Shown: in pieces, positions 38,199 to 52,310 of the stretch
Layout of the letters: every line of letters starts with the position of its first letter
Position numbering within the stretch: the first letter of the stretch is position 1
Assembly: GCF_000003815.2 (NCBI RefSeq)
Contig: NC_049980.1
Span: 9,918,964 to 9,982,963 of the forward strand
Source of the DNA: Branchiostoma floridae
Taxonomy: Eukaryota > Chordata > Leptocardii > Amphioxiformes > Branchiostomatidae
Reading direction: 5' to 3'
DNA: 64,000 bases
Notes under the pieces: model-generated
What the model was told of the DNA's origin: nothing
What the model saw: only the letters and a program-made list of their open reading frames with translations
The model's database searches: none
Position numbers and translations under genes: made by a program

Positions 38199-40849
38199 AA
38201 TGGCAGAGAATTTCGTGACTTTTTCCTTCTGAAGTACATGTACATGTCTCAGAATTCAAAGCGACCTTTCAGTGATATGACGCCTACGAAAGACGGACTT
38301 GCACGGCTGCTGTTACAGGTCATCACTTGTGCATACAGTATGTATGACGCTTTTATTATGTTTTCACCCGTACCTTTTCAGACAAAAGATATGATGAAAG
38401 CACTGATGAAGAATTTGTGATATGAAAGGAGAAGCGCTTTATAATCATTGTCGAAGACGCACGTTGGTAAAAGTTCACAATAGTTCCCCTGCGACCTGTT
38501 AAATCTTCTGTACACACATTGGAATTTGCTCTCATAAAATTTGCAACAGCTCATCTCGCGGCTTTCTCATCACATTATTGAAAGCTATTCTATGCTGAAG
38601 TAGGTGCAAAGGCGCACACAAAAGTGGCGTTGGCCCTTTTAAGCAGGGATAGATTATGTTTCAAAGCTGCTCATGCAAAGCGCCTTGGCGACAGGACGGT
38701 TGTACTCAAATGGTGAATCATTGCGCTTTTTGGTCTCATATACCAATCATGACCTGCCATTTGTTACAATTACTAAATACCCAACTTTTATGGGCGCAAA
38801 TCCATTCGGAAACAGTTTGTCCTTCCTATAGATGAATAGTACAGTACCTCGAGACCACGTCTAGCGATGGAATTTACGTTAAACAGTGATATTAACACCA
38901 ACAACAATAACTTGTAAATAGCTAGAATCTATAGAAATAGAAAACTTTATTAGAAGGTTCGGAGTCTGTTGCATGGAACTTCTGTTGCATGCCACTATAT
39001 AAAAACTCCGTCGACTCTCACTCACTTCTGCATAGGGCGGTACACTAGATACATAGTATTTTGTAAATTGAACACTTACACATATTGAAGTTGTTGAGAA
39101 AACTTTTTGCTACTTTTTTCTCAGATGGCCCATGCAGTTATTCTGTCACATGATATATGCAGTACTGATATCTTCCTATTTCAAGGTGCTGACCTGATGC
39201 AGCTGCTAAGTCTCCTTGGTGTGTGTTCTTCCAATGACATTCATTAAAGATTTATTTCTGGAGTGATATATCACTTGACATTGGAAGGTTATTTGCATAA
39301 TTTTACCAATGGTACTTTTAGTACAGTAGTTCCATAGACAATATCACTGTGGTAGCCCTCATGCAACAGCAACAGTTAGTCCCCAGGGTGGTATCATATT
39401 TCCATTCAATCTGACCAACCCAACCCACCGGCGGGAAAGTCTAACCATAAAGATCGCAGTTTTTTTAGCTGCACGCTGTCATATTGAACAAAATTTCATT
39501 TTTTGTTTGCTTACCACTTCCAAGAGATTGAAAATTCAAATAGTATTTGAATTTCATAAGAAGTACAAGTCCCTGACTACGTTGTTGTTTCGCTGACACT
39601 TCTGGTAACTTCGACCACAAAATTTTTGCGATGATTAAAAAGGACTTTAAAACCCATTCAAACGGTTTGATAGAAGATCCCTTTCTTTCAGTGATGACTT
39701 GGTAAGTTATGGCTACGCACTGAAATAATCGCCTAAACCCTGACTCCCGCTGTCGGGAGCCCGACGCGTTCTCTTTATACGCAGTTTGAAGTTGTCGGGG
39801 ACTCCCGCTGAGCCTACGGGCATGCACTTCGGAGTGGACGGGAGAAAATTTGAAGACAACGGGACTACAACGACGGGAACTCTGTTTACATGGGGCTCCC
39901 GCTCTCGCCAGTCCCGCTCTCGCGAAAACCGTAATGTAAAGTGGGCCTAAATCTCTTCTAGTTATAATCTAAGCCAAATTTAACAGCAGAATTAATAATC
40001 AAAATGTCCTTGTCAATCCCACTTATAGATGGCAAGCTGCTGGCAATGGAAACTTTGAAAAGTTCAGAAAACTGTTGTAGCCAGAGCGAACACCCGGCAA
40101 ACACCCCCCAAAACCAATGAGCAGTTGCTTAGAAGGGGAAAACAATTTCATCATATATTTGCAGTGACAAAATGCACCAGACAATACTTAACAAAGCCTC
40201 CACCACTTAACCCTGCTTGTACTATAGATTTAAAAGCAGGCCCAAAAATCAAGTGAATATGACTGGCCCAAAATTACCTGCATACAATATGGAAATGGCA
40301 TCACCAAAGAAACACAGGAAAAATCATACACATACCTTTCTCCTATGCTCATGCTCTATTCATTTCTGCTCCACTTTAGAAAGTTGTATCTTCTTCTGTT
40401 TAACCATGATTGCCAAACAGGGTAAAGGAACTTGTACCAGAACTCATGAAAACTCTGAGTATTATACAGCTGTCAAAACACCACAAAGACTAAGAAGCAA
40501 ACTCAAATTATACCCAACCAGTATGGCAGGAGCAAAAAGCACAAAAAATACCACCTTCAATGTCAAGGTCAAGCACCAGGAGGCCCAAAATCACACCTGA
40601 GTGTCAAGCTACCACCCCCAACCCACGTACCAAAAATCGTCGTGCTCGCACCATCCGTTCTCGAGATACAGCGCCCTAAATCCCCAGCTTCCAAAAATTC
40701 CCACGCCCATGAAAACCATACCTGCATACATGCAGGTAATCATGATTACAGGTTTGCGATAGCAAAACCTGTTCTGTTTTTCGTTGCATTTAGGGGCGCC
40801 GCCATTTTGTTTTGAGGTGTATGACGGGAAGGGTGGCGCCATTTGGATT
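38199..40849. other. Non-coding, upstream of the FCGBP-like gene
   Basis: Contains the FCGBP-like gene promoter by position. I find no exon chain. Open frames near 39465-39827 (minus) and 40217-40600 (plus) lack domain features or usable splice borders. 39720-39950 is GC-rich with repeated GACTCCCGCT / GGGAGTCC words and looks like an element without clear ends. Confidence 0.4.
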
Positions 40850-41520
40850 TGATGGATTAGTGTGTTGTATGAAGTGATGTGATAAGATGACTAGGAAATG
40901 TGATCTTGTGCTCTTGTCGGAAACGGAAGGACAGCAAGAGCCACAAGCATGAAGGGTTAGTGTGTTGTATGAAGGAATTGGATGGGATCTTTAGGAAATG
41001 TTGTTAGTGTGTTGTATGTAGGGATTGGATGGGATGGTTAGGAAATGTGATCTTGTGCTCTTGTCGGAAACGGCAGGACGGCAAGGGCCACAAGTATGAA
41101 GGGTTGGTGTGTTGTATGAAGGAATTGGATGGGATGGTTAGGAAATGTGATCTTGTGCTCTTGTCGGAAACGGCAGGACGGCAAGAGCCACAAGCATAAA
41201 GGGTTAGTGTCTTGTATGAAGGAATTGGATGGGATGGTTAGGAAATGTGATCTTGTGCTCTTGTCGGAAACGGCAGGACGGCAAGAGCCACAAGCATGAA
41301 AGGTTAGTGTGTTGTATGAAGGGATTAGATGTGATGGTTAGGAAATAATATGACCTTGTGCTCTTGTCGGAAACGGCAGGACGTCAAGAGCCACAAGCAT
41401 GATGGGTTGGTGTGTTGTATGAAAGGATTGGATGAGATGGTTAGGGAATATGATCTTGTGCTCTTGTCGGAAGCGGCAGGACGGCAAGAGCCACAAGTAT
41501 GAAGGGTTAGTATGTTGTAA
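40850..41520. repeat. ~100-bp tandem repeat array
   Basis: Five to six units. Each contains GGTTAGTGTGTTGTATGAAG, GGATGGTTAGGAAATG, TGATCTTGTGCTCTTGTCGG, AAACGGCAGGACGGCAAGAG and CCACAAGCAT. Repeat starts fall near 41098, 41200, 41299, 41401 and 41502. The first unit is interrupted and irregular (40940-41040). Confidence 0.92.
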
Positions 41521-42557
41521 AGTTAGGAAAATTACGACAACATCTCCAACTTGGACATGTAACAAATATATACAGGTTCCTTTAGTTGCCGACTGGAATT
41601 TGAAGATCAGCACATGAAGGATAAAGAAATGACGCAGAGACAAGAATTTCCGTACGCTAGGCACGGAATACGTTTAACGTTATAACAGACTTCATAATAA
41701 TGCTATCTCACTCAGGCCTTAACTGAAGTTCTCTATTGTCTCTCCTGAACTGAATGCTCTTACCTTACACTCTCGTCTTCACATTCTGTCTCAGTACCAG
41801 ACAAATGTCTGCTCTCCCGAACTGCCGTAGAAATCTTCCGTCTTTGTATTCTGTTTTACCTGACAGACATCTACTCAACTCCGCTCATATCACTCAACAT
41901 TGGTTACTTGTACATCTCGGTCTGTTGCAGTTTACGTCATCAAACGAATAACTGTCTAAGAATAACAATCATAGTACAATAATACATCACTACATTAATA
42001 CATTATTATATCTAGCAAACGTTGTGTTGTATCTTCTTGTAAGTGACGGAGTGAAAGGCTGCTGCAGCTTGTATGCACAATATACTTGTAAGGTCCCATT
42101 GACGTATTACTCCGAGATCCAAAAAGTCCCAAAAAGTAAACGGCTGCATGGACGTGTATTTGTAGCGTTGAGAAACTCCCGAAAACGTTAGATTGGTAAA
42201 AGTCTGTTTGTAACTCAAGAAATTTGCAGGCAACGTTTGAATTATGTAAATGACATGCTAGAAATAACATGTTGACTTATTCATATCTGTAAATATGCAT
42301 ATACGTCTGCTTAGTTGTATTGTATGTACTTGTTATAATCCTCACGAAAGTCGCTGTACTTTTGTCGTGTCAATAAAGATTTCATATACATTTGGTTGGG
42401 ATGTCTACCATTCGTATATCCACCCTTTAGACCGTCGTTGTCTAGGTCAATTGAATTATTTTTTTACATTCCTTAATATGACATAATAGAATAGACAACA
42501 GGTAATCGTAAAAGTCAAATAACGCAGACAGCACATGTATGTTAGTCCATGAATTCT

Positions 42558-43573
42558 CTAACTGCAGTCAGTTTTTCCTTCAATAGCAGCGCAATCGCTT
42601 GGTTGCACGCGGCTCTGCTGCCGGTCTGGCATTTCCCTCTCATGGCCTTGCTCCTTCGGGCAACATTGTTTCTGGTTTTGCATGGCACCCAGCCTCAGTC
42701 CCCTTGTAGCAATTTGCACACGGATGTCCTTCCCTTCAGTGATACAGCTCGTCTTCCAGTGTAAGCCATCAGCGACGTCCCTTGCGGCGGTAGGAGTTCG
42801 TGTGGATCTCTCTTGCCCGACCTGTGCTGAGTTCGAGAGATCAGAGAGACACACACATATCAACCTGTACCTGAACACTTATTGAGCCCAACAAAATATT
42901 CAAAATATTCGAATATGTTGATTCGCTTTTAAATAAGAATAAGAAGAATAAAAGTGATAAGGAAAAGAATAATAAGTCCATGTTGATGAGATGTTTCCTT
43001 TTCACTGCAAGTATTCTAGTTGTACTTCTTAGACATCTTTATGATGAGCCCCTGCAACAAGAATGCCAAAAAGGACAGGTCAATTGCATTTACCTATACA
43101 TTTGAAAAATCCAAAACTAACAATTAAATCAAGTTCATAATCCAACTATACCTGGCTCTGACCAAAGAACACGATCAATTATTCCTCTTGACTATGCAGA
43201 AGTGGAACTGGAAGCTGATTACTTACCGAATTGCAGTGCGTGGGGGCAGTCGCTATTAATCATCAGAGACAGGTCCCAGAGCCGTGTTGTCTCCTCTCTG
43301 CCTGGCAGCGAAATGACTGCTGTGTTCGTAATCAGCTTGGTTTACGTTGCATCTGCATTACGCAATATGAATCCTAGGCAGCTCATTGGCCAGCGACCAT
43401 GGGTTATTCCATAGCGGAAAAGGGGGGCTAGGAAAGAGGAGCAAGGTAGTAAAAAACCGGCCAACATGTAGAAAAAAAAGAATCTCACCAAACTTGAAAG
43501 CTTTGACATATTCTCCAAACATTCTATTGGCCGTGGCGGGGACTGCGGGTATGCTATAAGCCACAGCGACATA
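42558..43573 (-). CDS. Unidentified protein, three 3' exons
   Basis: Exons 43489-43573, 43227-43319 and 42558-42826 have AG acceptors and GT donors (GTGAGA, GTAAGT) and join in phase 0/1/1. The product begins YVAVAYSIPAVPATANRMF, continues through FAVISLPGREETTRLWDLS and ends in a hydrophilic, Cys-containing tail of about 90 residues closing GKTDCS. I do not recognise the family. The exon upstream of 43573 must lie beyond the LTR element, because only 88 bp separate them, so that element sits in an intron of this gene. The minus-strand frames at 48190-48620 could hold the upstream exon, but no join is convincing. Confidence 0.5.
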
Positions 43574-43661
43574 CTAGTATCATGTGTAAAGCACACGTAG
43601 AAAAAAACACCCTAACGTTAGTTCTAACATGATCTGTTCCCATTGTATTGCATGCGATTGT

Positions 43662-43839
43662 GCCAATAGGGAACACGTACGGTGACGACTCAAGGATGAC
43701 AGTGAGCGCATAGTCAGGAGCACAATCTATTTGGCAACATCTAGATGGAACCCATAATGATGAACAACCGGACCCTACCACTAGTTGCATGGGGGTGGTC
43801 CAAACCTCTTATAACATTAACACTATACAATAGTGGCGT
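43662..43839 (-). repeat. 3' LTR
   Basis: Identical over 178 bp to 47838-48015. It is preceded, on the minus strand, by the purine-rich tract at about 43845-43880. The copy ends TTGGCA at its outer edge, giving the CA end expected of an LTR. Confidence 0.85.
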
Positions 43840-44109
43840 GATCTGTCTCTTCTTTCCCTTCTCTTTTTTTTCCTTCTCTAACTCTCTGACTACTTAACAA
43901 AGGGTGAGTAAGAAGGTGTGGTAAAATGTCGTGTATTGGAAGTCTAAACTTGAATACTGTTGTCTTCAAATATTAACTTGCTACATATAAGGAACATGAG
44001 TTAAACTAACTACAGAATATGTGTTACGTGAACAAGTAAACAAATATAACGGTAACAATAACTTGAATAGAGTTTGTTGAAGCCTTGCATTAGGTTTTGT
44101 CCTTGCATT

Positions 44110-44810
44110 CCTTGTACTTTACATAAATTGTGCAGATATGGAAAAATAAACTGAGTAGAGTTCTGCTTTGACCTTGCCGTATATACTATTCTTGAGTCCC
44201 TTACACTCTAGATACGTTTTGTGTAGACATGGAGAAATACTAGTACATGGAATAAAGCTCTGTTTTAACCTTGTAGTATATACTGTCCTTGCGTTCCTGA
44301 ATCCTGGTACTTTAGAAAAATTCTGTGTTAACATAGATAGAGAAATAAATCGTCTTAAATTGTTTAAACCTCCCATTAGGTTCTGTCCTTAAGTTCCTTG
44401 TGATCTCAATAAATTTTGTGTTGATGGTGAGAATAAATGGAATAATATTCTGTATCAATCTTGCACTAGGTTCTGTCCGTGAGTTCTTTGTACTCTAGAG
44501 AAGTTCTGTGTGGAGTCCACGGACCATGAAAAATAAATTGAATAAAGTTCTGTTTTGATCTTGCGCATAAAGTTCTGTTCTTCAGTTCTTTGTACTTTCT
44601 TTGTACGCTAGATAAATTCTGTGTTGACCTGGAAACTAAATGAATAAAGTTCTGTTTTAACCTTGTAGTAGGTTCTGTCCTTGAGTTCTTTGTATAACTC
44701 TAGAGGGTTCTGTGTTCACCTTGAGAAAACGTTGAGCGTGAGTTCTGTTTTGTCTATGAAACAAAGTTCTGTGGGTGACCGTCGTGTTGACCCGGAAGCA
44801 CAGTCTCCCA
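44110..44810. repeat. Degenerate tandem repeat in the LTR-element 3' region
   Basis: Roughly 100-120-bp units built on GGTTCTGTCCTTGAGTTC, TTGTACTCTAGA, TTCTGTGTTGAC and GAATAAAGTTCTGTTTT, repeated six or seven times with decay. It lies between the stop of the repeat-encoding frame and the polypurine tract. No coding capacity. Confidence 0.8.
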
Positions 44811-44816
44811 GTTGAT

Positions 44817-47717
44817 TCACACAGACGGGGGTGGCTTAGGTGGGGGCCGAACCGCTGGATGATGATGTACAGGAGCATCGGACGGGTGTGGACGCTCTCC
44901 CTTCAGCTGCTGTGTTGCGCCTGCTGATGGAGGGGACGGTTGGTACTCTCCCTTTAGCTGCTGTGAGTCACCTTCTGCTGATGGAAGTGAAGGCTGGTTC
45001 TCTCCCTTCAGCTGTTGTGTGTCACCTTCTGCTGATGGAAGTGAAGGCTGGTTCTCTCCCTTCAGCTGCTGTGTGTCACCTTCTGCTGATGGAAGTGAAG
45101 GCTGGTTCTCTCCCCTCAGCTGTTGTGTGTCACCTTCTGCTGATGGAGGAGAAGGCTGGTACTCTCCCTTCAGCTGTTGTGTGTCACCTTCTGCTGATGG
45201 AGGAGAAGGCTGGTACTCTCCCTTCAGCTGTTGTGTGTCACCTTCTGCTGATGGAGGAGAAGGCTGGTACTCTCCCTTCAGCTGTTGTGTGTCACCTTCT
45301 GCTGATGGAAGTGAAGGCTGGTTCTCTCCCTTCAGCTGTTGTGTGTCACCTTCTGCTGATGGAGGGGAAGGCTGGTTCTCCCCGTTCAGCTGTTGTGTGT
45401 CACCTTCTGCTGATGGAGGAGAAGGCTGGTACTCTCCCTTCAGCTGCTGTGTGTCACCTTCTGCTGATTGAAGTGAAGGCTGGTTCTCCCCGTTCAGCTG
45501 TTGTGTGTCACCTTCTGCTGATGGAGGAGAAGGCTGGTTCTCCCCGTTCAGCTGTTGTGTGTCACCTTCTGCTGATGGAGGGGAAGGCTGGTTCTCCCCG
45601 TTCAGCTGTTGTGTGTCACCTTCTGCTGATGGAGGAGAAGGCTGGTACTCTCCCTTCAGCTGCTGTGTGTCACCTTCTGCTGATGGAAGTGAAGGCTGGT
45701 TCTCTCCCTTCAGCTGCGATGTGTCACCTGCTGATGGAAGTGAAGGCTGGTTCTCTCCCTTCAGCTGTTGTGTGTCACCTTCTGCTGATGGAAGTGAAGG
45801 CTGGTTCTCTCCCTTCAGCTGTTGTGTGTCACCTTCTGCTGATGGAGGGGAAGGCTGGTTCTCCCCGTTCAGCTGTTGTGTGTCACCTTCTGCTGATGGA
45901 GGAGAAGGCTGGTACTCTCCCTTTAGCTGTTGTGTGTCACCTTCTGCTGATGGAAGTGAAGGCTGGTACTCTCCCTTCAGCTGTTGTGTGTCACCTTCTG
46001 CTGATGGAAGTGAAGGCTGGTACTCTCCCTTCAGCTGTTGTGTGTCACCTTCTGCTGATGGAAGTGAAGGCTGGTTCTCTCTCTTCAGCTGCTGTGTGTC
46101 ACCTTCTGCTGATGGAAGTGAAGGCTGGTTCTCTCCCTTCAGCTGTTGTGTGTCACCTGCTGATGGAAGTGAAGGCTGGTTCTCTCCCTTCAGCTGTTGT
46201 GTGTCACCTTCTGCTGATGGAAGTGAAGGCTGGTTCTCTCCCTTCAGCTGCTGTGTGTCACCTGCTTATGGAGGTGATGACTGGTAATCTCCCTTCAGCT
46301 GCTGTGTGTCACCTTCTGCTGATGGAAGTGAAGGTTGGTACTCTCCCTTCAGCTGTTGTGTGTCACCTTCTGCTGATGGAGGAGAAGGCTGGTACTCTCC
46401 CTTCAGCTGCTGTCTTTCACCTTCTGCTGATGGAAGTGAAGGCTGGTTCTCTCCCCTCAGCTGTTGTGTGTCACCTTCTGCTGATGGAAGTGAAGGCTGG
46501 TTCTCTCCCCTCAGCTGTTGTGTGTCACCTTCTGCTGATGGAAGTGAAGGTTGGTACTCTCCCTTTAGCTGTTGTGTGTCACCTTCTGCTGATGGAAGTG
46601 AAGGCTGGTACTCTCCCTCCAGCTGCTGTGTGTCACCTTCTGCTGATGGAAGTGAAGGCTGGTTCTCCCCGTTCAGCTGTTGTGTGTCACCTTCTGCTGA
46701 TGGAGGAGAAGGCTGGTACTCTCCCTTCAGCTGCTGTGTGTGGTACTCTCCCTCATGTGCAGTGGAAGCCTCCGATGTTGGAGGAGAGAGTTGGTACCCT
46801 ACCTCTACCTGTGCAGTGGCAGCTTCTGCTGATGGTTATGAAAACTGGTAGTCTAAGTCTAACTCCACAGGTGTTGTGAGAGGCTGGTGCTTGTTCTTCT
46901 CTAGTATGGTAGGTGATCTTGCCTTTGTTGGCACTTCATTCATAGTAGGGTTGGGCATAGAGGTAGCATGGAGTATGTGCATGATCTTGGTTGACTGATG
47001 AGGTGTCATTCGGGTATCGGTTACTAGTCTGGGGCATGGCACGTTGTTGGTAAAGACACTGTGTATGCATGGCGTCGATTGCGTTGTGGATGGAGAATAG
47101 TTCGAGGTGTATCCATCAGAAAGTTGAATCTGATGTTTACTGAAGTTGATGATTAAACTGTTGGATTCCAAGAAAGAAGTTCCGGCTACAATAGGTTCGG
47201 CGAGGTCGTCAACCACGAAAGCATCAAATTTCAGAGGGACTTTCTCCCTGTAGAACGTAGTAGAGCACTCACCTATGACGGAGAGTCGCCGCCCATCTGC
47301 TTGGATTGACTTGAGATTTGCTGCGTGTTGCGATTTACGGACGGGTACATTCAGACGCTGTGCTTCGGCAGCTCGGATCAAGCTTGTTTCGGCTCCCGAC
47401 TTTAAGTTGATCCTGATTGCGTGCCCCTCATGGAAGGCATCCAAGCGAGGTAAAGCACGAACGCTGACTCCCCTCGCCTGCGCACGTGGGGAATCCCCGA
47501 CGTTGTCAGGACGTTGGTGGGGAGGGCGAGGGTACGATTTCTCTTCGCCTGACAAGAAAGGACAAGTGCTAAGGACGTGGTTGACATATGGGACAGATCT
47601 TCTTAGGTCCTCGTTTCCTCGGGTGTGATCTTGATGGACCCGGGGTAGAAAAGTGTGGAAGTTGAGTCGGTGTGGAACACCATTCATAAGGTCCCGGATG
47701 TTGACTCGCCATGACAT
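44817..47717 (-). pseudogene. Retroelement frame: gag tail / retropepsin-like domain / 18-residue repeats
   Basis: A minus-strand frame from 47717 to a TAA at 46836 encodes a retropepsin-like domain: HAIRINLKSGAETSLI, then IGECSTTF and IVAGTSFLESNSLIINF. The usual catalytic Asp of the D-S-G motif reads Lys here. Upstream, a CPIC half-knuckle lies in one frame and the H-x4-C half in the next, so a frameshift splits a CCHC zinc knuckle. After the TAA the same frame continues without a break in repeat-like sequence, then into about 34 copies of an 18-residue Q/P/S/E-rich unit (TQQLKGENQPSLPSAEGD type). It carries one more in-frame TAA at 46266 and ends PPPKPPPSV plus TGA at 44817. Confidence 0.75.
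44885..46745 (-). repeat. 54-bp minisatellite (~34 units)
   Basis: Nearly exact 54-bp units, a few shortened by 3 or 6 bp (for example near 45725, 46155 and 46260), so the reading frame is always kept. All three plus-strand frames stay open over hundreds of codons for the same reason. On the minus strand it is the repeat domain of the retroelement frame. Confidence 0.95.
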
Positions 47718-47837
47718 GTGCGGACTTGCTATTCTGCCCTTTTCCCCGGTCGTCGTTGCGCGTTATTTACCTGGTTGCGTGGCATCCAAGCTTCTTGGTG
47801 CGTGTGTGGGTTCTAGGAGACCAACCGGTGCCACCAC

Positions 47838-48015
47838 GCCAATAGGGAACACGTACGGTGACGACTCAAGGATGACAGTGAGCGCATAGTCAGGAGCACA
47901 ATCTATTTGGCAACATCTAGATGGAACCCATAATGATGAACAACCGGACCCTACCACTAGTTGCATGGGGGTGGTCCAAACCTCTTATAACATTAACACT
48001 ATACAATAGTGGCGT
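47838..48015 (-). repeat. 5' LTR
   Basis: Identical to 43662-43839. The inner edge reads TTGGCG followed at once by TGGTGGCACCGG on the minus strand. Confidence 0.85.
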
Positions 48016-51000
48016 TGCGCAATTCCATGCCACCTGAATGAAACCTTTGAAACCAAAGAATTCTAAAAAGCAAGATACACCGTCACGAATAGTAAAATGA
48101 AAACTGTATATGCAGACAAGTCGTCCATCTTGATATTTTCCTCGTTGGCTTCTCGGGTCCAAAATATAACTAATAATACTGTGCTGTCAATTTATAAATA
48201 TACACGACAACTACGTTTTCGCAAATATCTCAACACACTTAGGATATGTCGAAAAAGACCCACCGGTGCTAAATAGGTCACATGGTTCCTTGTGTTGTTG
48301 TTGTCGCAAATCCAGCGATGTCCAGCATTACAACAAGCTCCTCGGAGGTGGTGGGGTGGCGGGAACGTCTTAATACGTCGTACAAGAAATTGTTGGCGTT
48401 GGTCTGCATGATGTGGGCAACGTACGGAAGGATGCCTTTGTGTTATCCAAAATAATGAAGCCCTTGGTTGCGCCGAGGATGTCGCCACCGCCGTATGCAG
48501 GTAGCCAACAATCAGTAATTCCAGTGCATTTCCAAGTCTGTCTTCGGAAACAACGGACACATCGAAGGGAGACATTACCGTTCATGAAAAGGAACAGAAA
48601 TGAGACAGTAAACAAATATCAGGCCTGATTGTGGGAACCCCAAACGTTGTGTCAGACAGTATCAGCTTTCTCTGCTCCGGGGTCATCGGGTTATCGGGGT
48701 CATCAGAGAAATCCGGGTTTTGTCACGTTTTCAATTAAGCGGCAAAATAGCAAGGTGTCAGGTTCACACGCTTCCTGTCAATCATCCAAACTGTCATTTG
48801 GTTTGATTTCCTCTATCTTTTAACTGTCCCGTGTTCTGTGAAATAGGTGGGGGTTGTGATTTTAATGAAACGTAGACTTTTGGTGATCTACTCATTGGCA
48901 AACGCTCGGACAAATTGTGGCAACAGTTTGAAATAAACTTTCTTTCGGTCTCGTCGTGAAGACTGCGTTCAGTATGCTATACTTAAACAGTCTACCGTGG
49001 ACAAATAGAGTTTTATAACGACCTCTTTCTATCTCTAATGGATAAGCGCTTATTCTTAACTTAAAGCGCTTAGATATGGCGGATCTTTATTCGAACTCAG
49101 GTAATTTTCCATCGAATATATATTTGGACTTGAAACCTTAAAGGGCATATTGGCTTACCGTGATTTGTAGACGATTTGCAAAAGAATGTTTGACGTACAT
49201 ATCAGTAAGTCCTCCTTTAATTAACAATGTACATATATTTTCATTGCCTACAGGGTAATTGGTGTTCCATAAGAAGGAATATCACTCGGAAAGTTGGAGT
49301 AACCAGCTCTTCTTGCAATTATTTCACATATTGTATTGTTGACACAGTAAAACGTTCACCTGTAAGGGATGTGTGTGGATGTCCAGTTGCTTCAGTCTCA
49401 GCCAATACTTAAGTACAAGAACACTGATACTTCCATATCTATTTGGAATACCCCCAGTTTTGCCCTACTAGCTAGGTTACACGAATTTCTGTGTGCACTA
49501 AGGATCGGTGTTTTTACAAAAGCAGTTCTATATGTTAATATTTCAACAGGGCAATAGTCATTTGAGTGAACTTTGCTGGGGCTAGCCCTTTGTAATAGCC
49601 ATAGGCTAGTTGGGCAGCCCTGGCTGTGTGTTCGGTGCAGCCAAACCAATAAATAAATAAGTGAACTTTGCCTCAGATCTCAACAGCATTTATAGACTTG
49701 ATATATGCATTGTCATGTTTAAGTAGGGCCTTAGAGGATAACAAAGTCTACATGAGGGTTTTGATACCGAAAGCGGCTTTCTGTGCCTTTCAAGACAGTT
49801 GATTTAGCTAAAGAATAACTGCCTGACGAGGACAGGCCTGGATAAAGAGCGTCATTTGGAAACTTGATGTTCCTGAAAGTCCATCCTATTTTTTTTTAAA
49901 CCACCACTTTAGTTGTCTTTAGTCTTGAATCTTCCATTTCACACAAAAGACGTTATATAAGCTTGTCCAGTGTACGCAACACAAAACACGGTTCTCTACG
50001 TCTACGGCGACAGTGGTGTCGTGTCTGAACATGCACCTGCATGATCATGAGTCATGGGAAATTCCCTGACGAGGTGACGGCCCAAAACCCCCACGCCTCT
50101 ACGGCGACAGTGGTGTCGTGTTTGAACATGCACCTGCATGATCATGAGTCATGGGAAATTCCCTGACGAGATGACGGCCAAAAAAACCCACGCCTCCCCA
50201 CATGATCGTAAATGCGCGATTTTATTTTTACAAAAATGCATTTATGACGATTGTGAATAAAAGACATGCGGGATTTTTTTTCGAATGTCAATATGAATAT
50301 GTTTTTTTTTTTTTTTTTTGCAAATGTCAATATGACGATTGTGAGTGAAAGAAATACGGGATTCTTTACGGATGCAATTACGACGACTTTGAATTAAAGA
50401 AGTGTGGGATTTGTTACAAATGATGACGATGGTGAATGATAAAGACATGTGGGAAAGAAATGCTACTAGTTATAGCAGCACCCCAATGAGTCCACACAGT
50501 ACATGTATAGTCAGGACCGTGCAACTGAACATAAAATGGACATGCCAGAGAATGATTTGTTTTTCCGGTCATTATTTTGATCGCAGCTACCAGTAGTCTA
50601 CCGGAATCTGGCACCGATGATGACTAGCGTGTATGTTGGTTGACAAAGACATTGAGAAATGATTGTTTTCAATAGAAAATTTACGGGTGAGCAGTGACGC
50701 TTGTACCAAGGAGCTTCAAACTCTCCCTGCATGACAAATCCCCGGTGTGCTTATCTAAAGGTGCCCTCTCTCAGCGGCACATGCGTCACTGCGGGGTTCG
50801 TTCACTGCGTTACTGTTTTGCTATTTTCTCCGATATTTCATAATTTAGATATTGCGTAATACGTAAAAGTATGAATACGACAATATTACGCTATATTTTT
50901 AGATATTGACAGCAGAACTTGAAACAGCTAGACAAATATTAGCCTGGATGCCAGACGGCCTCCAATTTCTCGGCTCACGGGCTAACATGTATTCTCTACC

Positions 51001-52310
51001 AGACTGACTACGCTGGCTGTTATAGGGAGAATACTTTGCCTGGGAAGTTTTGCTACCAGAGGGTTTGGTCGGCCACGTAATCCCAACCTGATCTAACCTA
51101 ATAGCGTGTACTGATTCCCCTGGCCAATTTCCCGATTTTCTTGCCGAATTTCACGATCCCTGGACCCACGTAGGAAGGTGTAGTCTAGCCAGCATGCTCC
51201 GACTAAATAAATTCTACATCAGACCCCCCCCCCCCCCCCAGTTATATTTTACAGATACGTTGATATGTTTATCTTTTTTAGCAGAAGTGTTTTTGATGCA
51301 GGTGCCTATAGAAGAGTCCATCCTCACACAGGGAGGGGCAATCGTTTAAATGCAATTCTGGACAGGATGATTATGCGAAGTCCGTTCTTTGATGAGAGGA
51401 GCAGTAATTGAACGGGTCCATTTTACATGAAAATAGCACTACAATACTCCATTACCCCGCGAGAGAGTCATTTTGCTAAATTTAATTTTAGACTGGAGTG
51501 TTTAGGCAAAGTCCATTTTATTTTAGAGAAAGTGTTTCTAAACCATAACATTTGACATATGGGTGCTGGCCAATGGAAGAGTCCATTCTCGCACAGTTAA
51601 TTTTTAGCCTGATTAAATCTCGCTTAATCTGATTAAATCTCGCTGTATAGCAGCCCGCCCAACATCCACCCTTGAGGAGGGGCCAGTTACAGCCCAGCGT
51701 TGCACAGACTAAGTTAATTTTGGACTGTGGTCATTATGCAAAAGACAATTTTTGAGCAGAAGGGTTATTGAACTGGTCCACTACATTGTAGTTGTTGACA
51801 TATGTCAGAAGAAAGGTCCATTCTCTTTTTAAAGATTCAGTCTACGAATTTGATGATAATGCCTTCGGAACTTCTTTGGTAAGGCTCATGCATAGTCCAT
51901 TTTAACCGGAAGTGTTTTTAACGTCAATTTTAATATTCATGTTAATTTATCCCGCATAAATTACTCACACGCAAACCTGTATATATATTTGCTGGAACAG
52001 CTAATATTTAACTCTAGTTATGTCTGCACTCATGTGCACGCTGCTATTATGATGAATTCTGGGGTGTCTTACCTCTTCGAATTCACTTTGGGGCCCTTAA
52101 TGTAAATCGGGATTTACATCAAGGATCCCAAAATTATTGACTTTACTAGCACTGCTAGGCGAAATACTAGTGACTAGTAGTAGGTTGTTATGCTAACTTC
52201 AAACTCCCCCTCCTATGTAATTGGTACCGCCCTTCGTCATGACCTTTGACACTCATTTCCCCAGTTGAAGTGTGTGATTGCTGTCCTTCCACTGATGATG
52301 ACATGCCGGC
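48016..52310. other. Repeat-rich non-coding interval
   Basis: 48190-48620 has overlapping open frames on the minus strand with partly protein-like composition but no consistent splice model. The remainder shows no gene. It includes a 97-bp direct duplication at 50001-50194, a degenerate ~63-bp repeat around AATATGACGATTGTGAATAAA at 50210-50470, a poly-T run near 50302-50320, a poly-C run near 51224-51239, and recurring GAGTCCATT words at 51300-51900. The C3orf38 promoter must lie just before 52311. Confidence 0.5.
50001..50194. repeat. 97-bp tandem duplication
   Basis: The block starting TCTACGGCGACAGTGGTGTC occurs at 50001 and again at 50098 with only a few substitutions. Confidence 0.9.

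Follow-up and report, generated by a model that had tools for sequence, protein, structure and literature searches.

We propose that the LTR element lying on the minus strand at 43661–48014 of the window (the whole 64,000-nucleotide stretch of Branchiostoma floridae DNA analysed here) is a non-autonomous Troyka retrotransposon, which retrotransposed once into a non-autonomous Helentron and then spread as the cargo of that Helentron; we regard this as the best explanation of the data, and as very probably correct. The element's last move, in other words, was made as Helentron cargo. Both partners are known kinds of element and it is the combination that is uncommon; it was absent from the titles and abstract openings surveyed on amphioxus, on Helentrons/Helitrons, and on nested or non-autonomous LTR elements.

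A first-pass annotation of this DNA had described identical 178-bp LTRs, and a direct repeat (43662–43839 and 47838–48015) does indeed run for 178 bases with no mismatch. This repeat had, however, been cut one base off, in that base 48015, the 178th identical base of its right copy, is part of the target duplication. The correct boundaries, shifted by a single base, place the 3' LTR at 43661–43838 and the 5' LTR at 47837–48014, both on the minus strand, with ends of the form CG..CG (CGCCA..TGGCG in the sense of the element); the pair so cut differs at 1 of 178 positions, namely the outermost base of the 3' LTR (43661), where it is unlike the other copies. The element is flanked by the 3-bp duplication TTG, at 43658–43660 on the left (a single TTG is found in L036, an LTR-free copy of the Helentron) and at 48015–48017 on the right. 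Across the 513 Mb of genome searched, the window LTR has 43 matches, and the surroundings of 20 of these sites were read. A 3-bp duplication was present at all eight independent insertions whose two ends could be read (TTG, for which the window and the copies C1 and C5b are counted once, CTG, CAG, CAA, TAT, CTA, TAA and CAG), the CTA site, offset by one base in the printout, having been read by eye; the remainder lacked one readable outer end, and L026–L028 were left out. A different cut, GCC..GGCG with a 4-bp duplication, was dropped, as CG..CG and a 3-bp duplication agree with every one of the eight sites.

The first-pass annotation had proposed a genome search for siblings, and the LTR search gave copies at C1:21.42M, C5:10.38M, C5:15.06M and C19:4.90M (hereafter C1, C5a, C5b and C19). 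At C1 and C5b the likeness to the window takes in the LTR element and its surrounding DNA alike, and at C5a it does so in part; the C19 copy, which diverges most among the four close copies (window, C1, C5b and C19), occupies another insertion site and has no Helentron arms. In the window the element is nested within a repeat that runs from 40746 to 52019 (plus strand; 11,274 bp) and is common to C1 and C5b, the DNA beyond it being unrelated between the three. All three carry the LTR element at the same insertion point, with TTG on both sides, and a Helentron free of the LTR element at C11:5.63M (L036), 94% alike, reads through this point with one TTG. As TTG is doubled in the window, C1 and C5b, and single in the C11 copy, the LTR element therefore entered once and was then carried; it jumped into the Helentron once, and the Helentron afterwards copied it to other chromosomes. 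Counting against this are the 6% divergence of the empty-site copy, and a second Helentron copy of fitting size, L037, which gave no match over the joined insertion junction.

These observations bear directly on the alternative that the LTR element itself retrotransposed here very recently, in trans. Such a jump would account for the near-identical LTRs, for the failure to detect a polymerase in the scanned frames, and for a Lys-for-Asp change in the protease that is common to the separate insertion at C19; yet it is at odds with finding, in the Helentron copies at C1 and C5b, the insertion point and the TTG duplication of the window, and with a zinc-finger deletion carried by only the window and C1 of the four copies, such that we find it scarcely credible. 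Nor does assembly duplication serve as a source of the direct repeats, the same structure being present at separate places in the genome.

The enclosing 11,274-bp repeat, a nesting that had been overlooked in the earlier annotation, has the features of a Helentron (a rolling-circle transposon of the Helitron2 type). Positions 40746 and 52019 are the ends of a repeat family: 37 of 41 matches begin at 40745/40746 (there being at least 41 matches, with the query reaching only 3 bases further out), and 35 of 40 end within 52017–52023 (at least 40 matches, with the query reaching 8 bases further). A 5' subterminal inverted repeat (40748–40758), together with its predicted hairpin (40748–40772; fold -8.1 kcal/mol, z -5.2), lies 2 nt from the 5' end; its exact complement, the 3' subterminal inverted repeat (51970–51980), lies 39 nt from the 3' end and is followed by a predicted 3' hairpin (51985–52007; -4.6 kcal/mol, z -3.6), all on the plus strand. 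As laid out in the excerpted text of PMC4067079 and PMC3627910, Helentrons/Helitron2 have subterminal inverted repeats near their ends, and hairpins, the repeats lying 0–4 nt from the 5' end and about 38–60 nt (a mite HINE) or 20–30 nt (Helitron2) from the 3' end; the 2 nt and 39 nt seen here fall inside the HINE range. Judged against the same excerpts, the window copy resembles Helentron/Helitron2 elements and their non-autonomous HINE/DINE-1 derivatives in its asymmetric subterminal repeats, hairpins at both ends, T-rich ends, internal tandem repeats and the absence of a Rep/helicase frame inside it, but differs from them in its length of 11.3 kb and in bearing a nested two-LTR Troyka. Helentron/Helitron2 elements insert into T-rich or TT targets and leave no duplication; TT stands at the left end of four Helentron copies and at the right end of three. 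Because open frames in the arms do not exceed 129 residues, we class the Helentron as non-autonomous.

Among the loci compared, an empty site for the outer ends of the Helentron was not found, which counts against the proposal; L020, considered as a paralogous empty site, was rejected, its homology stopping near 40740 with no resumption at the right flank. A canonical Helitron (5' TC, 3' CTRR, A/T target) was likewise set aside, CTAG being present near the 3' end but the 5' TC absent, and the subterminal repeats matching Helitron2, as was a terminal-inverted-repeat DNA transposon, for which none of the first 25 of 27 inverted pairs (minimum 14 bp) was present at both ends. The arms also hold tandem repeats of about 100 bp (41003–41519) and about 97 bp (50001–50196), and an 83-bp insert (49577–49659) that is missing from C1 and C5b, is bounded by a 12-bp duplication (49565–49576 and 49660–49671), and ends in a AATAAATAAATA tail; this SINE-like retroposed piece postdates the split of the Helentron copies.

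Divergence between the arms is low, at 0.87% for window versus C1, 1.8% for window versus C5b, and 0.31% for the left arms of C5a and C5b. Long arms with so little divergence are also what speaks for segmental duplication or ectopic recombination, rather than Helentron transposition, as the means by which the element spread, and so does the unevenness between window and C5b, where one right-arm piece differs by 3.3% and the other arm pieces by 0.9–1.2%. Against this, the homology breaks off at one fixed pair of points, both of them ends of the repeat family and marked by Helentron terminal structures; duplication of this kind is, in our judgement, highly improbable, and the uneven arms hint at exchange between copies, or at uneven change. 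On the favoured explanation, transposition of the Helentron, Rep/helicase proteins encoded elsewhere would have moved it, presumably by a rolling-circle mechanism; that it was copied to a number of sites and took the LTR element along is shown by the same insertion amid unrelated outer flanks. In an autonomous Helentron, Rep/helicase is fused to an endonuclease. The Rep domain (PF14214) has 79 matches in the genome, many within long open frames, and a candidate coding Helentron lies at C1:29.87M, where a 94% match to the Helentron 5' end is followed, in the same orientation, by a Rep domain about 17 kb downstream and by Pif1-2B and endonuclease domains about 20–21 kb downstream; the absence of a matching 3' end from the 7.5 kb read counts against this candidate.

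The age of the retro-insertion had previously been taken from the LTRs, as very recent. This is not supported, since the insertion predates the divergence of the Helentron copies, whose arms are 0.87% to 1.8% apart, and since the LTRs are not quite identical. Per 178 positions, mismatches within the LTR pair number 1 in the window, 3 in C1 and 0 in C5b, against expected means of 1.55 at the age of the window–C1 split and 2.1 to 3.2 at that of the window–C5b split, and the counts therefore cannot separate these ages. In C5b, two positions in both LTRs differ from the window and C1, one of them also in a C5a LTR, for which LTR-to-LTR conversion is a simpler reading than parallel change. The likeness of the LTRs comes from a short time, short LTRs and, probably, such conversion; near-identical LTR ends say little about the date of the retroelement's own last jump. 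Conversion between LTRs, giving ages that are too young, is described for nested LTR elements of plants in the excerpted text of PMC7251063; relative to that account, the source of error is alike, but the outer element here is a rolling-circle transposon and its sibling copies allow an independent check.

Troyka LTR retrotransposons were reportedly the subject of work by Kapitonov and Jurka in 2008. The marks given for them in the excerpted text of Kojima 2025 (PMC12440569) are LTR ends 5'-CG..CG-3', 3-bp duplications and a finger of the form CX2CX8-10HX4C, with a Pol that holds RT, RNase H and integrase in autonomous members; members without Pol are also counted as non-autonomous Troyka, 70 of which are mentioned, and amphioxus was one of the first two hosts. 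The group is named Kuafuorterviridae in PMC11673190, again as excerpted. Measured against that description (PMC12440569), the window element is like Troyka in its CGCCA..TGGCG ends, 3-bp duplications, LTR and interior lengths within range, retropepsin-like domain and, in its siblings, a CX2C-X9-HX4C finger; it is unlike autonomous Troyka in that no RT, RNase H or integrase was detected, and unlike Troyka as there described in its Lys for the catalytic Asp and in a long array of 18-residue repeats after the protease. It also differs from Ty3/Gypsy (Metaviridae), which, as most LTR retrotransposons, has TG..CA ends and 4–6-bp duplications. By its ends, its duplications and the finger of its siblings, we therefore assign the element to Troyka, and only to the non-autonomous kind, because no Pol domain is present in the scanned frames.

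Reading on the minus strand from the 5' LTR, the interior begins with a leader (47767–47837), a primer-site-like stretch adjoining the LTR that ends near a splice-donor-like CAG/GTAA (by eye), and continues with a zinc-finger region (47560–47606) in which the reported frame break is indeed present, together with a short deletion. An open frame at 46836–47717 holds a retropepsin-like domain, matched to Pfam PF13975 at E 0.0057 (short of the cut-off of that family), with, near 47400, the motif LKSGAE, and so, as first described, a Lys where the catalytic Asp is expected. Next comes a 54-bp tandem array of 34 units (44895–46741), encoding 18-residue repeats in the same frame as the protease; the two in-frame stops noted earlier are confirmed near 46836 and, within the array, near 46266. 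The non-coding part of the interior (44075–44760) contains diverged repeats, many of them spaced by about 90–100 bp, and is devoid of open frames of 100 residues or more; a purine-rich tract picked out by eye (43839–43890) adjoins the 3' LTR. The reported lack of a polymerase region also stands for the frames scanned with Pfam, which gave no polymerase domain, and no RT, RNase H or integrase; Pfam matches to the repeat arrays were discounted as low-complexity.

That these defects predate the last move, as had been suggested, is borne out for the Lys; it fails for the zinc-finger deletion and for the stops, all of which are absent from C5b. Lys replaces Asp in all four close copies, and the motif is LDSGAE in a relative, 51% identical across 144 residues of the protease, which lies in a 1631-residue open frame, with an RT domain (PF00078, E 3.5e-7) about 1 kb further on. 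Because the Lys is common to the C19 insertion, at its other site, and the RT-bearing relative has Asp, the change is most simply older than the retro-insertion and movement in trans follows, much as had been proposed. A Troyka that lacked RT and integrase, and that most simply had Lys for Asp by then, retrotransposed once into the Helentron, as the 3-bp duplication and the empty site show, with proteins probably supplied in trans. Relatives with long open frames lie at C1:20.81M, C10:6.15M, C14:2.64M, C1:27.57M and C12:7.19M. The RT-bearing relative is a candidate partner, known from its frame and domains, although it has only 51% of the protease stretch in common with the window, which counts against it. 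The short zinc-finger deletion is confined to the window and C1 among the four copies, the C5b and C19 copies having a CX2CX9HX4C finger, and arose on the Helentron, before the window–C1 split. A stop after YQFS is found, among the four, in the window copy only and arose there; the stop near 46836 is absent from C1, C5b and C19, and the C1 and C19 copies have stops of their own at other places.

Other relatives share parts of this interior. A genome search with the protease/leader stretch gave 41 matches, of which 33 cover the leader only (about 72 bp, 91–95%). Five such loci (L035, L038, L039, L040 and L041) have up to about 500 bp in common from the leader on (about 500 bp in four, about 260 bp before unread N in one), with a 72-bp direct repeat and a longer related LTR-like part, the latter seen in L035; this repeat was rejected as an autonomous partner, no frame of more than 178 residues being listed outside N at the five loci. 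A member of the LTR family of about 0.94 kb, L010 (C12:18.566M), retains only its two LTRs, part of the leader and the 3' interior, with the duplication CTG, and is a miniature (TRIM-like) derivative; its primer site resembles the 3' end of tRNA-Leu. Searching with the array as protein gave 18-residue repeat arrays at loci that the protease search did not pick up (C218:129186-135244, C4:33514163-33516293, C19:1420012-1422343, C18:6374826-6376104 and C3:7380203-7380550), one of which sits in a 1199-residue open frame.

The array varies from copy to copy (34 units in the window, 49 in C1, 23 in C5b and 25 in C19), and in C5b the 18-residue units run in frame after the protease, the frame staying open across the array, over 790 residues. 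This long frame, and similar repeats beside a protease remnant at C6:25.97M, are what would commend a functional protein of zinc finger, protease and repeats, kept by selection for use by the host or for particle structure. In the C6 relative an 88% leader stretch is accompanied by a remnant of the protease, in which Asp is apparently lacking, and by 51-bp repeats of its own with 46% likeness over 104 residues (a score of the kind that repeats inflate), but the frames there are broken; moreover, pN/pS ranges from 0.65 to 2.04 over the six pairs of the four copies, with few changes, and gives no sign of purifying selection on this frame, so a kept function seems very unlikely to us. We also entertain, as a speculative and on balance unlikely idea, a distinct Troyka lineage in which the polymerase has been replaced by the 18-residue array behind an Asp-less protease, with two diverged branches (the window type and C6), spread by borrowed retrotransposition machinery and as Helentron cargo, and with the repeat protein acting as a structural parasite of Troyka particles.

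Returning to the carriage of Troyka by a Helentron, the locus serves as an example, backed by sibling copies and an empty site, in which a DNA transposon accounts for the most recent spread of an LTR element. LTR identity alone would date this element as freshly retrotransposed, which urges caution in dating by short LTRs. Troyka, for which the rank of a separate superfamily has lately been proposed, also gains a non-autonomous form with this element.
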